In this document: piece after piece, positions 2,383 through 63,276 of the stretch
Layout of the letters: each line of letters opens with the position of its first letter
How positions within the stretch are numbered: position 1 is the first letter of the stretch
Assembly: GCA_902762375.1 (NCBI GenBank)
Contig: CACWNY010000003.1
Span: 1 to 64,000, forward strand
Origin: an uncultured Ruminococcus sp.
GTDB lineage: Bacteria; Bacillota; Clostridia; Oscillospirales; Acutalibacteraceae
Reading direction: 5' to 3'
DNA length: 64,000 bases
The notes under the pieces: generated by a model
What the model was told of the DNA's origin: nothing
Seen by the model: the letters and a program-made list of their open reading frames with translations, nothing else
Databases searched by the model: none
Program-made: the position numbers and the translations under genes

Positions 2383-2614
2383 TTTAAGGGCTTCGCCCTT
2401 AAAAATCCCATCAGGGGCGTTGCCCCTGAACCCCACAAACTTTTTGAAAAAAGTTTGACAAAAACTTTTAATTGTCATAGCTGAAGGTCTGATAATCATT
2501 CCGAACGAAGTGAGCCAAAAAAGTTTTTTGTCCACTTTTTTTCAAAAAAGTGGGCGGGATTGTTAAGGGCGGCAGCCCTTAACTCAGGGGTTCGGGGAGG
2601 AACTCCCCGACAAG
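2383..2614. repeat. MITE family dimer, copy 1 (head-to-head)
   Basis: Forward copy 2383-2482 with hairpins TTAAGGGCTTCGCCCTTAA, CAGGGGCGTTGCCCCTG and AAACTTTTTGAAAAAAGTTT, then the junction CCGAACGAAGTGAGCC, then an inverted copy with a CCAC...GTGG hairpin. An extra TCGGGGAGGAACTCCCCGA hairpin closes it, as in the dimer after the second VanW gene. Confidence 0.85.
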
Positions 2615-3945: not shown

Positions 3946-4108
3946 ATTAAAAATCAAATAGTTATTGTCAAAATTTGCTGACGCAAATTTTGTTTTGAAT
4001 TTTTATTCATTAAAGGGCTTCGCCCTTTAAAATCCCACAAGGGGCTTTGCCCCTTGACCCCACCACTTTTTGAAAAAAGTGGACAAAAACTTTTAATTGT
4101 CATAGCTA
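3946..4108 (+). repeat. MITE family copy 2 (forward)
   Basis: Starts just after the DUF512 stop with the AT hairpin CAAAATTTGCTGACGCAAATTTTG, followed by the AAGGGC, AAGGGGC and CCAC...GTGG hairpins and ends at GTCATAGCTA. The terminal inverted repeat is decayed (GCGATTAAAAATCAAATAG). Confidence 0.85.
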
Positions 4109-5473: not shown

Positions 5474-5730
5474 GGGCAGTTTAAGGGCAGTTTAAGGGCA
5501 GTTTAAGGGCTACCGCCCTTAAAAATCCTGTTAAGGGGTTGCCACCCCTTAACCCCGCCCACTTTTTTGAAAAAAAGTGGACAAAAAACTTTTAATTTTC
5601 ACCGCCGAACTTCTGATAAACAATCCGAACGAAGTGAGCCTTGAAAGTTTTTGTCGAACTTTTTTCAAAAAGTTCGTGGGGTTCAGGGGCAAAGCCCCTG
5701 ATGGGATTTTAAAGGGCAAAGCCCTTTAAC
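5470..5730. repeat. MITE family dimer, copy 3, with tandem 11-bp units
   Basis: The 306-bp der-plsY gap is almost all repeat. Three and a half tandem units of TTAAGGGCAGT (5470-5510) lead into a forward copy with a CCAC...GTGG hairpin; the junction AATCCGAACGAAGTGAGCC follows, then an inverted copy with a CGAAC...GTTCG hairpin. Confidence 0.85.
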
Positions 5731-18552: not shown

Positions 18553-19683
18553 ATGAAAGAATTTACCGAACTGCTGGAACATTTCTGGTTTGTTAAAGAC
18601 AATGACAGCACCGATTATTTCCGTATAAGACGTGCTGTTGATGATAAGACAAAACGATTTCTTAATGAATCTGTGGGTTGGAATATAATTGTCAACCACA
18701 AAATTGTCAAGCTCGAAAAAATTCCTGCCAAAGCCTATCCTTTTATGGGAATACAGTCTTTTGACGACAAAAAAGACTATTGCCTGTTCTGTGCATTGCT
18801 GATATTTCTTGACGGCAAAATGGAAAGCGAACAGTTTCTGCTTACGGAAATGATTGAAAGTATGGAAAAGATTATCGGTAATGTCATTGATGTTGACTTT
18901 ACTCGATTCACCGACAGAAAATCACTGGTAAAAGTGTTGAAATTCGCACAGAATATGTCTTTGATTGTCATATCAGACGGAACGATTGACAATCTCGAAA
19001 GTGACCGTAACAAACAAATTCTTTATGAAAATACAGGACTTTGTGCTTATTTCAGTGTTAATCACAGCAAAGATATTTTCCATTTTCAAAATTACCGTGA
19101 TTTTGAAAATCAGACAGATATGTACCTTGATAACGATACAGGTTATGCCAGAACAAACAGAGTTTACCGTAAATTGTTGTTACAGCCTGCTGTGTATTGG
19201 GAAAGTAAAAATGACACCGACAGTATCTATCTGAAAAATCAGCGTAAATCCATTGAAAAAAATCTTAACCATTATCTGGACGGAAGACTGGATATCCATA
19301 ACGGGTGTGCCTTTTATCTGTTGGACGAAGACCATACTTTTGGAAAAGTTCACCCATCTGAAAGTATGCTTTCAGGTTTTGCCACAATGGTATGTGCCGA
19401 ACTGAGAAACACCTATGCTCATTTTCTGCCGTATAACGATACACACAAATATTATCTTGAAAAAACAACCTTTGACCACATTCTGCTGGAATGTAAGAAA
19501 AAATTTGAGAGTGGTCTGGGCAAACAACTTAGAGAACTCAGTGATGACAAATTTACCGCCCTTGTTACCGACTATTTTTGTGACTGGCAGTTTCTTGAAA
19601 AGACAAATAACGGCTATTTTGTTTGTGACGGTATTTATAAGACGGCAGGAAAATTCCCTGAAGATTATCAACTTTCAGATTAA
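18553..19683 (+). CDS. jetB: Wadjet system protein JetB
   Basis: A 376-residue MukE-like (KITE) accessory subunit, expected to bind the JetA kleisin. It shows no enzymatic motif. ATG 18553 is chosen because GGGGAGGA inside the end of jetA is 8-10 nt upstream; reading further upstream would overlap jetA by 60 nt. The TAA stop is part of the first hairpin of a MITE dimer that fills the 264-bp gap to jetC, an unusual interruption in an otherwise tight operon. Confidence 0.83.
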   Translation: MKEFTELLEHFWFVKDNDSTDYFRIRRAVDDKTKRFLNESVGWNIIVNHKIVKLEKIPAKAYPFMGIQSFDDKKDYCLFCALLIFLDGKMESEQFLLTEMIESMEKIIGNVIDVDFTRFTDRKSLVKVLKFAQNMSLIVISDGTIDNLESDRNKQILYENTGLCAYFSVNHSKDIFHFQNYRDFENQTDMYLDNDTGYARTNRVYRKLLLQPAVYWESKNDTDSIYLKNQRKSIEKNLNHYLDGRLDIHNGCAFYLLDEDHTFGKVHPSESMLSGFATMVCAELRNTYAHFLPYNDTHKYYLEKTTFDHILLECKKKFESGLGKQLRELSDDKFTALVTDYFCDWQFLEKTNNGYFVCDGIYKTAGKFPEDYQLSD

Positions 19684-19918
19684 AGAGCTTCGCCCTTTAA
19701 AATCCCACAAGGGGCTGCCGCCCCTTGACCCCGCCCACTTTTTTGAAAAAAAGTGGACAAAAAACTTTTATGGCTCACTTCGTTCGGAATGATTATCTAA
19801 GGTATAGCTATGACAATTAAAAGTTTTTGTCGAACTTTTTTCAAAATTTTTTCAAAAAGTTCGTGGGGTTCAGGGGCAAAGCCCCTGATGGGATTTTTAA
19901 GGGCGAAGCCCTTAAACT
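19681..19918. repeat. MITE family dimer, copy 8, inside the Wadjet operon
   Basis: Forward part with CCCAC...GTGG hairpin, a junction in the opposite orientation (GGCTCACTTCGTTCGGAATGATT), then TATAGCTATGACAATTAAAAG and an inverted part with CGAAC...GTTCG hairpin. It separates jetB from jetC and overlaps the jetB stop codon. Confidence 0.86.
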
Positions 19919-26655: not shown

Positions 26656-26858
26656 TTAAGGGCTTTGCCCTTAAAAATCCCACAAAGGGCAATGTCGTCA
26701 ACTTAAGAGTGTCATTCCGAACGAAGTGAGGAATCTTTTGAAGATTCTTCGTCGCTTTCGCTCCTCAGAATGACAACAATATACCACAAAGGGACTTTGT
26801 CCCCTTGACCCCTACCACTTTTGAAAAAGTGGACAAAACTTTTAAATGTCACAGCTAT
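26656..26858 (+). repeat. MITE family copy 10 split by repeat 2
   Basis: Hairpin AAGGGCTTTGCCCTT, then CCACAAAGGG, a 94-bp insertion, then CCACAAAGGGACTTTGTCCCCTT, CCACTTTTGAAAAAGTGG and GTCACAGCTATACA. Confidence 0.85.
26691..26784 (+). repeat. Repeat 2 (94 bp) flanked by a 10-bp target duplication
   Basis: Runs from CAATGTCGTCAACTTAAG to CAACAATATA, with internal inverted TGTCATTC (26711-26718) and GAATGACA (26768-26775). CCACAAAGGG is present directly on both sides (26681-26690 and 26785-26794), the mark of insertion into the MITE. Confidence 0.8.
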
Positions 26859-40681: not shown

Positions 40682-40788
40682 TTTAAGGGCTTTGCCCTTA
40701 AAAATCCCATCAGGGGCTTTGCCCCTGAACCCCACCACTTTTTGAAAAAAGTGGACAAAAACTTTTTTGGCTCACTTCGTTCGTTTTT
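40681..40788 (+). repeat. MITE family copy 15 with half junction
   Basis: AAGGGC, CAGGGGC and CCAC...GTGG hairpins directly after a TAG stop, ending in GGCTCACTTCGTTCG, the dimer junction without its second half. Confidence 0.84.
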
Positions 40789-46399: not shown

Positions 46400-46569
46400 G
46401 AATGATTTTCTCATTGTATAGCTATGACAATTAAAAGTTTTTGTCCACTTTTTTCAAAAAGTGGGCGGGGTCAAGGGGCGACAGCCCCTTGTGGGATTTT
46501 TAAGGGCGAAGCCCTTAAACTCCCGAAAATTCCAAACAAAATTTGCGTAAGCAAATTTTGACAATAGCA
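46381..46569 (-). repeat. MITE family copy 17 (reverse)
   Basis: Left end TTTTCCATTTGTGCGGTAGG overlaps the end of the flippase gene; CCCACTTTTTTCAAAAAGTGGG, AAGGGGCGACAGCCCCTT, AAGGGCGAAGCCCTT and AT hairpins follow. Right terminal repeat is lost. Confidence 0.87.
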
Positions 46570-51160: not shown

Positions 51161-51430
51161 GCAAAATTTTCTTGTGAAAATTTTGATTTGAATTTTTATC
51201 CATTAAAGGGCTTCGCCCTTTAAAATCCCACAAGGGGCTGCCGCCCCTTGACCCTGCCCACTTTTTTGAAAAAAAGTGGACAAAAAACTTTTAATTGTCA
51301 CCGCCAACTTTCGGATAAAGATTTCCGAACGAAGTGAGCCATGAAAGTTTTTGTCGAACTTTTTTCAAAAAGTTCGTGGGGTTCAGGGGCAAAGCCCCTG
51401 ATAAGGGGTTCGGGGGTGAAACCCCCGATT
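51161..51430. repeat. MITE family dimer, copy 19
   Basis: Forward part with AT hairpin and CCCAC...GTGG, junction TTTCCGAACGAAGTGAGCC, inverted part with CGAAC...GTTCG, closing with TCGGGGGTGAAACCCCCGA, the same kind of extra hairpin as in the dimer after the first VanW gene. Confidence 0.87.
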
Positions 51431-57663: not shown

Positions 57664-57882
57664 GTTAAGGGCGTTGCCCTTAACAATCCTATCAGGGGCG
57701 TTGCCCCTGAACCCCACGAACTTTTTGAAAAAAGTTCGACAAAAACTTTTAAGTTGTCATAGCCATACTTTGAGATAACAATCCGAACGCAGTGAGCCGA
57801 AAAAGTTTTTTGTTCACTTTTTTTCAAAAAAGTGGGCAGGGTTAAGGGGTTGGGAACACAGACACTGTGCGGCAGTCCCTTA
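57664..57882. repeat. MITE family dimer, copy 21
   Basis: Forward part with CGAAC...GTTCG hairpin, junction AATCCGAACGCAGTGAGCC, inverted part with CACTTTTTTTCAAAAAAGTG, then a diverged end GTTAAGGGG...CCCTTAA that contains the stop codon of the PdaB-like gene. Confidence 0.84.
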
Positions 57883-61136: not shown

Positions 61137-61433
61137 GTTTAAGGGCTGTCGTAGTTTAAGGGCTGCCGCCCTTAAAAATCCTGCTAAGGGGCTGCCGCCC
61201 CTTAACCCCGCCCACTTTTTTGAAAAAAAGTGGACAAAAAACTTTTAATTGTCACCGCTGACACTCGGATAAACAATCCGAACGAAGTGAGCCAGAAAAG
61301 TTTTTGTCGAACTTTTTTCAAAAAGTTCGTGGGGTCAAGGGGTGAAACCCCTTGTGGGATTTTAAAGGGCGAAGCCCTTTAATGACTAAAAATTCAAAAC
61401 AAAATTTGCGTATGCAAATTTTGACATTTAGAA
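61137..61433. repeat. MITE family dimer, copy 22
   Basis: Forward part with duplicated TTTAAGGGCTG starts, GGGGCTGCCGCCCC and CCCAC...GTGG hairpins, junction CAATCCGAACGAAGTGAGCC, inverted part with CGAAC...GTTCG, AAGGGGTGAAACCCCTT and the AT hairpin. It fills most of the 61111-61559 gap. Confidence 0.87.
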
Positions 61434-61536: not shown

Positions 61537-61559
61537 ATTTCATCATAAGGAGGTTGGGT

Positions 61560-62042
61560 ATGACACCTAAAGAGGAAAAATTCTGTTGTTTTTATGCGTT
61601 AAACGGTAATGCCAGACTTTCGGCGGTACTTTCAGGATATAAAAATTCTCCTGAAATCAAAGCGGTGAAGTTGCTCTCCAGAAAAGATGTCGGCGAAAAA
61701 ATCCGCTTTTACCGAAAGGCATACTATGATGATTTACGGGCTTTGGCAATAACAGGATACCGTCAGCTAGCCTTTGGCAGTATTGCGGACTGTATAAAAC
61801 TGATTTACGATATGGATAATCTGCCGTCATTGGATATGATGAATTTATTTATGATATCCGAAATCAAGAAACCTAAAGACGGCTCTATGGAGATTAAGTT
61901 TTTTGACCGCATAAAAGCGTTGGAAAAACTGACCGAAATTGAACAGCTCTCTGAAGAAAGCAGTATACCGTTCTATAAGGCACTGGAAAAGAGTGCGGAT
62001 ATTTTCAGCAATGACGAGGAGGAGGAAAATGTTCCCGAGTGA
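61560..62042 (+). CDS. Phage terminase small subunit
   Basis: A 160-residue DNA-recognition subunit of the packaging motor. MTPKEEKFCCFYALNGNARLSAVLSGYK is the Terminase_2-type opening (KxxxFCxxYxxxxNA...AxxAGY), followed by the DVGEKIRFYRKA helix and an acidic C-terminus. AAGGAGG is 6 nt before ATG 61560. It overlaps the large subunit by 14 nt. No integrase, repressor or HNH gene precedes it. Confidence 0.9.
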   Translation: MTPKEEKFCCFYALNGNARLSAVLSGYKNSPEIKAVKLLSRKDVGEKIRFYRKAYYDDLRALAITGYRQLAFGSIADCIKLIYDMDNLPSLDMMNLFMISEIKKPKDGSMEIKFFDRIKALEKLTEIEQLSEESSIPFYKALEKSADIFSNDEEEENVPE

Positions 62043-63276
62043 ATTTTCTCCGAAACAGATGAAATTATTGACATGGTGGTGTCAGGGAAGTAAGTATTCA
62101 GATTGTGATGCCGTTATCTGTGACGGTGCAGTCCGTAGCGGTAAGACTTTATGTATGAGTATTTCTTTTGTATCATGGGCGTTTTACCGTTTCAACAACG
62201 GCAGTTTTGCTTTATGCGGTAAAACAATACGCTCTTTGAGAAGAAATGTGGTTACTCCTTTGATGGGTATGCTAAAACCTATGGGATTTACCTGTAATGA
62301 GAAATTTTCTCAAAACTTGCTGGAAATTTCTGTCAACGGTAAAACAAATCGTTTCTATCTCTTTGGCGGTAAAGATGAGTCCTCTGCGTCATTAATTCAG
62401 GGTATGACCCTGTGTGGTGTGCTTTTTGACGAAGTGGCTCTCATGCCTAAATCCTTTGTTGAACAGGCTTTGGCAAGATGTTCGGTTAGTGGCAGTAAAT
62501 TCTGGTTCAACTGCAATCCTGAATATCCTCAACACTGGTTCAGAACGGAATGGATTCTGGGCAGAAAAAAGAAAAATGCTCTGTATCTGCATTTCACTAT
62601 GGACGACAACCCCTCTCTTTCTGAAAAAATGAAAAAACGCTATCAATCCCTCTACAGTGGTGCTTTCTATGAAAGATTTATTCTTGGAAAATGGGTCAGT
62701 GCCGAAGGGTGTGTCTATCCTTTTATGAAAGAGGATAGTTTTGTGAATTTGCCTGAATGTTCGTTTGAAAAATATGTCATCAGTTGCGATTATGGTACGG
62801 TAAATCCTGCGTCTTTCGGACTTTGGGGATTGTATCGTGATGTATGGTATCGCATTGAAGAATATTATTACGATTCCCGAAAGGTCGGCTTTCAGAAAAC
62901 GGATGAAGAACATTATCAGGCTCTGGAAACTCTTGCCTACCACAAAAAAATTGATGATGTCATTGTTGACCCGTCTGCTTCAAGTTTTATCCAGACCATT
63001 AAACGACACGGTAAATTTCATGTGTCACCTGCTAAAAACGATGTGCTTGACGGTATACGCAAAGTTTCTACGGCTCTCAAGGACGGCAAAATCAAAATCT
63101 GTAATACCTGTTCGGATACTATTCGGGAGTTCAGTCTTTATCGCTGGCAAAGTGGTGGTGCTGATGTTCCCGTAAAAGAAAATGACCACGCTATGGACGA
63201 TATCCGTTATTTTGTTTCAGGTGTCGTTTTCAAACCTCAACATGATTTTATTGTCTTTGCAACAAAACGCTTTTGA
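62029..63276 (+). CDS. Phage terminase large subunit
   Basis: A 415-residue ATPase-nuclease. CDGAVRSGKTLC (about 30-41) is the Walker A-like P-loop, GVLFDEVALM the Walker B, FWFNCNPEYPQHWF the coupling motif; the RNase-H-like nuclease half shows SCDYGTVNP, DVIVDPSASSF and DHAMDDIRYF acidic residues. GAGGAGGA lies 4-9 nt before ATG 62029 (in the small-subunit tail). It looks intact. Confidence 0.95.
   Translation: MFPSEFSPKQMKLLTWWCQGSKYSDCDAVICDGAVRSGKTLCMSISFVSWAFYRFNNGSFALCGKTIRSLRRNVVTPLMGMLKPMGFTCNEKFSQNLLEISVNGKTNRFYLFGGKDESSASLIQGMTLCGVLFDEVALMPKSFVEQALARCSVSGSKFWFNCNPEYPQHWFRTEWILGRKKKNALYLHFTMDDNPSLSEKMKKRYQSLYSGAFYERFILGKWVSAEGCVYPFMKEDSFVNLPECSFEKYVISCDYGTVNPASFGLWGLYRDVWYRIEEYYYDSRKVGFQKTDEEHYQALETLAYHKKIDDVIVDPSASSFIQTIKRHGKFHVSPAKNDVLDGIRKVSTALKDGKIKICNTCSDTIREFSLYRWQSGGADVPVKENDHAMDDIRYFVSGVVFKPQHDFIVFATKRF

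Follow-up and report, generated by a model that had tools for sequence, protein, structure and literature searches.

Dimeric extragenic repeats of an uncultured Ruminococcus pair unlike third hairpins in a BIME-like mosaic

The closest described systems are the BIMEs of E. coli, built from REP units y, z1 and z2, the REPIN doublets and the MITEs. In E. coli, BIMEs frequently combine y with z1 or with z2 as mosaics (PMC8266576), and the RAYT gene has one y and one z2 unit at its flanks (PMC2817692). The Ruminococcus dimers analysed here share with BIMEs an extragenic location, high copy number, inverted pairs of short hairpins, mosaics of unlike types and stem types that differ by compensatory base pairs, but their halves are arrays of at least three hairpins with far more stem types, their core can face either way with respect to the arms, and no GTAG tag was seen and no RAYT-type gene found. 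To our knowledge, the mosaicism of E. coli BIMEs has been noted but seldom explained. REPINs (PMC3116915) are likewise inverted doublets with a less conserved spacer, single halves and compensatory stem changes; most REPIN doublets, however, consist of two REPs of the same group forming one long hairpin, whereas like-half pairing is missing here. No such single long hairpin characterises the natural dimers, which do not favour cross-arm pairing as identical halves would. Like MITEs, the dimers are short, repeated and gene-free with inverted arms, but those arms are mutually unlike and exchanged, and a target-site duplication and cognate transposase were not established; the one empty site found (L205 against L130) lies in a relative that, at 76% identity, is too diverged to define the element ends. 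A scan of the window with Rfam 15 at the gathering score gave 0 matches, and a known structured RNA family was thus rejected. A narrow literature search found no described Ruminococcus element of this kind, and we make no claim that it is unpublished.

The window, that is, the whole stretch of 64,000 nucleotides that was analysed, covers C3:1-64000 in the genome of a rumen bacterium, an assembly of 2.45 Mb in 119 contigs. The preliminary description had reported six dimers in it (2383, 5470, 19681, 51161, 57664 and 61137), each with two different third hairpins, and its reading held: all six were found at these positions in the window sequence, and the third-hairpin pairs read along the junction motif were unlike in 6/6, with none alike. 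It had missed that both arm orders occur, the CCAC arm lying left in three dimers and right in three. The junction motif CCGAACGAAGTGAGCC is exact in 5/6 window dimers and carries one mismatch in the sixth (57783). Five of the dimers sit just 3′ of plus-strand stop codons (2371, 5473, 51149, 57608 and 61110), and dimer 19681 adjoins an open reading frame ending at 19683. In the dimer at 61137-61433, three hairpins make up the left arm and are followed by a linker, the variable spacer and CCGAACGAAGTGAGCC; beyond this motif come a second linker and the right arm, whose three hairpins are arranged in the inverse order. Its parts, followed by the third-hairpin pairs of the six dimers and a lone half, are as follows.

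61158..61173, plus strand, left arm hairpin 1 (AAGGGC..GCCCTT), from the sequence
61185..61204, plus strand, left arm hairpin 2 (TAAGGGG..CCCCTTA), from the sequence
61212..61233, plus strand, left arm hairpin 3, CCAC type, run length n=6, from the sequence and typing
61234..61246, plus strand, left linker ACA6CTTTT, its A-run equal to the hairpin T-run, as in 360/366 hairpins of this form
61247..61277, plus strand, variable junction spacer, of a kind found near-identical with different arm pairs
61278..61293, plus strand, conserved junction motif CCGAACGAAGTGAGCC, with which the right half opens, a half also found on its own, from the motif search
61296..61307, plus strand, right linker AAAAGTTTTTGT, n=5
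61308..61329, plus strand, right arm hairpin 3, CGAAC type, n=5, from typing
61336..61354, plus strand, right arm hairpin 2
61364..61380, plus strand, right arm hairpin 1
61212..61329, plus strand, dimer 61137, CCAC left and CGAAC right, from typing
2436..2553, plus strand, dimer 2383, CAAAC (2436-2457) and CCAC (2532-2553), from typing
5559..5676, plus strand, dimer 5470, CCAC (5559-5580) and CGAAC (5655-5676), from typing
19735..19863, minus strand (junction on the minus strand), dimer 19681, CGAAC (19831-19863, stem lengthened) and CCAC (19735-19756), from typing
51258..51376, plus strand, dimer 51161, CCAC (51258-51279) and CGAAC (51355-51376), from typing
57717..57835, plus strand, dimer 57664, CGAAC (57717-57738) and a slightly decayed CCAC, (T)CAC..GTGG (57814-57835), a right arm that the automatic caller did not pass
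40735..40784, minus strand, lone right half (junction and CCAC, n=5) without a left arm, junction at 40769-40784

Exact patterns in the genome of the window gave 40 CCAC-junction-CGAAC and 29 CGAAC-junction-CCAC dimers, 2 CCAC-CCAC and 0 CGAAC-CGAAC; in the two CCAC-CCAC exceptions a subtype with a 4-A linker is joined to the 6-A one, hence the arms are not identical. A wider census, from which junction-motif matches ending GGA, GAA or GAG (a different repeat) were left out, returned 248 junction sites, or 246 after the removal of two unrelated three-mismatch matches (L281, L283): 148 in the window's own genome, 60 in RUG11850 (G150), 37 in RUG11803 (G151) and 1 in RUG158 (G152). Both third hairpins were callable at 178 of them (111, 38, 28 and 1, respectively). 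The remaining 68/246 are half-elements, copies truncated at contig ends or copies with one decayed arm, and no identical inverted pair was seen by reading among those of the 68 that were listed. The same stem and run length on both sides occurred in 0/178 dimers, compared to 36.7 expected when right halves were shuffled within each genome (minimum 20 in 2000 shuffles). Many same-type dimers elsewhere, which the preliminary description had named as the result that would overturn it, were thus sought genome-wide and in three relatives, and there were none. Equal run length on both sides was called in 5/178 dimers against 53.2 expected, and is really present in 4, since an arm of L084 was mis-typed.

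At least eight stem types were distinguished (CCAC, CGAAC, CAAAC, CAAGCC, CCAAC, CCGAC, CCCAC and CCTAC, plus rarer ones), and in typing nearly all third-hairpin stems were perfectly complementary; this amounts to covariation of a local hairpin, but template switching inside hairpins could produce it too. The n=6 CCAC arm is found with CGAAC, CAAAC, CAAC, CCCAC, CAAGCC and n=4 CCAC, and never with itself. CGAAC and CAAAC, one base pair apart, met in 0/178 pairs, so that avoidance extends to near-like types; the 4-A and 6-A CCAC types met in 5/178. CAAGCC is the commonest left arm in RUG11803, with CCAAC, CCGAC, CCAC (n=4) or CCCAC on the right, so that this genome uses different types yet obeys the same rule. 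At three RUG11850 loci (L233, L245, L267) the same CCTAC or CTTAC stem does flank the core, but as tandem direct copies. The suggestion that two subtypes combine only as a pair did not survive the census, as both arm orders occur and the stem types combine in many ways; strict two-type pairing was rejected, with CAAGCC, 4-A CCAC, CCAAC, CCGAC, CCCAC and CCTAC all combining with CCAC, CGAAC or CAAAC types. The rule that remains is that no type joins itself. Most dimers come from two arm combinations, which leaves far fewer than 178 effectively independent cases, and when counted per distinct combination (22 in the own genome, 20 in RUG11850 and 10, counted per genome, none identical) the self-pairing deficit is weak to modest, which limits confidence. 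Two features of hairpin 3 recur beside these pairings: the linker and hairpin runs are equal at n=3 to 7 according to type, possibly because the 5′ strand pairs with either or because slippage holds them equal, and in many arms (e.g., L069, L077, L103, L136) the T/A of the loop is replaced by CCCTC/GAGGG or CCCCC/GGGGG, a second recurrent form.

High-copy extragenic palindromes in alternating orientation, as in REP/BIME families, were found (the own genome has 136 exact copies of the right core), as were inverted pairs that combine unlike types. No conserved GTAG-type tag was seen beside hairpin 3 by reading in the sequences listed. Since neither this tag nor a RAYT gene was found, we do not file the dimers as REP/BIME, though they are BIME-like in their working.

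Folding with DNA parameters bore on the further suggestion that unlike arms keep the halves from pairing with each other. Natural dimers (n=108) devoted 0.40 of third-hairpin pairing to local and 0.37 to cross-arm pairs at a mean minimum free energy of -41.8 kcal/mol, while in identical-arm pairs made by shuffling the cross-arm share was 0.93-0.97 and the energy lay between -63 and -67 kcal/mol. As natural dimers divide their pairing about evenly between the two modes, unlike arms let local hairpins compete while cross-pairing remains; the suggestion is therefore largely supported in that identical arms fold cross-arm, but in nature cross-pairing is weakened, not abolished. The shuffled CGAAC with CAAAC version also folds cross-arm, and shuffled 4-A with 6-A CCAC versions favour cross-pairing as well, with total stability not raised. 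The longest exact inverted repeat between halves was at most 15 nt in 166 natural dimers (the 178 minus 12 removed by a length filter and as the single RUG158 dimer), compared to at least 20 nt in 36.4/110, and up to 66 nt, with shuffled partners in the own genome. This did not depend on hairpin calling: over all junction sites the longest was 18 nt in the own genome, 16 in RUG11850 and 12 in RUG11803, and a repeat of at least 20 nt crossed the junction at 0/245 sites (246 minus the single RUG158 site), against shuffled means of 38.9/148, 5.2/60 and 0.5/37, respectively. The ceiling here is 15-18 nt across a junction of roughly 60-80 nt, a testable number. In 666 kb of own DNA, made up of partly overlapping stretches and regions picked around elements so that absolute rates are rough, exact inverted repeats of at least 20 nt numbered 0 at spacings of 200-499 nt and 3 at 500-999, then 8, 11, 12 and 11 per bin, steady at about 3 per unit beyond 1 kb. 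Of the five inverted pairs at 16-199 nt, three belong to the terminal repeats of copies of another element and two are small hairpins. Direct repeats in the same DNA were not scarce at short range, their counts being 19 at 200-499 nt, 7 at 500-999 and then 3, 6, 14 and 6.

The finished E. coli K-12 genome served as a small control. In 450 kb, 15/18 adjacent inverted REP pairs were y-z, the types being assigned with a motif presumed to be correct, and the longest exact inverted repeat common to a pair was 13 nt, compared to a median maximum of 29 nt in shuffles. Pairs of the same type numbered 3 observed versus 8.9 (minimum of 200 shuffles 3), and pairs sharing at least 20 nt numbered 0 versus 2.8 expected, a value that some shuffles also gave.

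Our main reading, to which we give a probability of about 0.58, is that the dimers form a BIME-like mosaic of hairpin modules whose palindromic pairings have disappeared because hairpins are unstable when the replication template is single-stranded. The elements would be extragenic units of two inverted arms, each a hairpin array, around a short asymmetric core, and comparison of copies shows that the arms are exchanged between copies and sites. Near-identical arms would create a long interrupted palindrome, and such copies are missing. Palindromes of this kind would fold on single-stranded DNA in lagging-strand synthesis and would be cut by an SbcCD-type nuclease or deleted by slippage and so lost; we infer this purging step, as we do the function and the mobility enzyme of the dimers. 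If palindromic copies are lost, only heterotypic pairs would survive, making heterotypy a survivor's mark and not a code, and the local hairpins, with their many stem types and almost invariably perfect complementarity, would be maintained in their own right. An sbcD gene (SbcD) is encoded in the own genome. In E. coli, SbcCD cuts replication-template hairpins formed by palindromes, a perfect 460-bp palindrome kills and interrupted ones are repaired (PMC4245961). A review (PMC7999016) adds that E. coli forks stall at inverted repeats separated by a 52-bp spacer and gives the prokaryotic Okazaki initiation zone as at least 1500 bp, and the scarcity of short-range inverted repeats fits loss within one single-stranded template. 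Counting against this reading, recombination-proficient E. coli tolerates an interrupted palindrome of 246 bp whose arms are 111 bp long (PMC4245961), so that purging would have to be slow rather than lethal; the own genome retains the 19-25 nt terminal repeats of another element, spaced 84-120 nt apart; and the 4-A/6-A CCAC pairs exist despite the cross-pairing favoured in their shuffled versions. The draft state of all the Ruminococcus assemblies weighs against it too, as a bias against assembling palindromes may play a part.

A broader form, which we regard as possible rather than probable, is a general bacterial rule of self-avoidance, in which arms would re-assort freely, at the same site and with the core inverted too, and any exact inverted repeat of about 20 nt or more within an Okazaki-fragment template would be removed. 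If true, one rule would cover the heterotypic dimers, the tendency of E. coli BIMEs to join y with z and the shortage of inverted repeats at less than 1 kb; mosaicism in bacterial palindromic repeats would follow from DNA hairpin instability, and such repeats would be a natural readout of the palindrome length that a chromosome tolerates.

Common descent, in which two founder dimers (CCAC-core-CGAAC and CGAAC-core-CCAC) were copied whole and the unlike halves simply inherited, accounts for the pairing in part, as 86/111 own dimers belong to these two orders or their CAAAC variants and the two classes differ on average in their spacer (CACCGC versus CATAGCTATAC). As a full explanation it is unlikely, and was already weakened by three results. 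First, spacers 97% alike (L002, L048, L071) carry three arm pairs, CAAGCC-CAAAC, 4-A CCAC-CGAAC and CGAAC-CCAC, indicating that arms have re-assorted; close spacer neighbours differ in left-arm class in 29/95 cases, and Mantel tests gave no correlation between left-arm and right-arm distances (r 0.07, p 0.18; r -0.05, p 0.62). Second, arms or orientation have changed at orthologous sites in a relative, a comparison for which only pairs with long, well-placed flank matches were used, other rows being contaminated by elements in the flanks. The RUG11850 orthologue of the 2383 site keeps the CAAAC arm with the core opposite, L108 and L182 keep the outer hairpins and differ in core and third hairpin, and L044 and L271 have cores in opposite orientation between flanks that are, on both sides, about 90% alike; such sites may have arisen by inversion in place, by conversion or by re-insertion. 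Third, none of the 22 and 20 distinct combinations of the own genome and RUG11850 is identical.

A two-ended transposon, with arms that serve as functionally different left and right termini and a transposase that requires both, as with the y and z2 REPs flanking the E. coli RAYT gene, would also predict that only unlike arms pair up, a habit that REP/BIME elements share (PMC2817692, PMC8266576). We nevertheless consider it quite unlikely, as more than two arm types inter-pair freely, the core is flanked in both orders and right halves are found alone, and as the Y1 transposase matches in the genome comprise only a remnant and a broken IS605-like copy whose ends are unlike those of the dimers. 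A search of the own genome with PF01797 returned no cognate RAYT/TnpA-REP gene, its three matches falling at two loci, of which the first is a broken IS605-like pair that includes tnpB and the second a fragment, with ends unlike the dimer arms. The former (L226, G000:C12:31.5-32.3 kb) has an IS605-like tnpA with a broken frame beside tnpB, and an origin of the dimers from this element at C12:31.6 kb was rejected on the grounds that its ends do not resemble the arms. That identical-arm dimers exist and are absent inside contigs because short-read assembly breaks at palindromes is very unlikely, for although the Ruminococcus data are all draft assemblies with contigs that often end inside these elements, typable truncated copies at contig ends are heterotypic too (L116, L099, L270), many copies that have long identical arms in common with one another, and inverted repeats of 19-25 nt about 95 nt apart, were still assembled, and REPs in the finished E. 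coli genome show the same unlike-pairing habit.

Among the matches listed in public genomes, the right-core pattern occurs in the uncultured rumen Ruminococcus genomes RUG11850, RUG11803 and RUG158. Carriers were 4/398 genomes of the family, all in the genus of the window (4/6 members searched), and presence in viral contigs was rejected after a search with 0 matches.

Other elements lie near the dimers. Left halves without a right half occur in the window at 4088, 14347, 37710, 39051 and 49033 and, on the minus strand, at 46439 and 10970; their tail is a different one, which in many cases ends in CATTCCAACCGCACAGGTGGAA, a sequence that could itself form a hairpin. A separate element at about 26683-26800, also seen at L021, L102, L141 and L169, has 19-25 nt terminal inverted repeats (CAATGTCATCAACTTAAGA) and contains GTCATTCCGAACGAAGTGAGGAATC, with CCGAACGAAGTGAG common to it and the dimer junction; at 26.7 kb it sits within hairpin 2 of a left half. 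The dimers at G000:C3:61137 and C3:73143 are oppositely oriented and bracket about 12 kb, which opens (window 61554-63276) with putative phage terminase genes, as judged by reading. At L181 in RUG11850, one dimer joins both flanks of that region.
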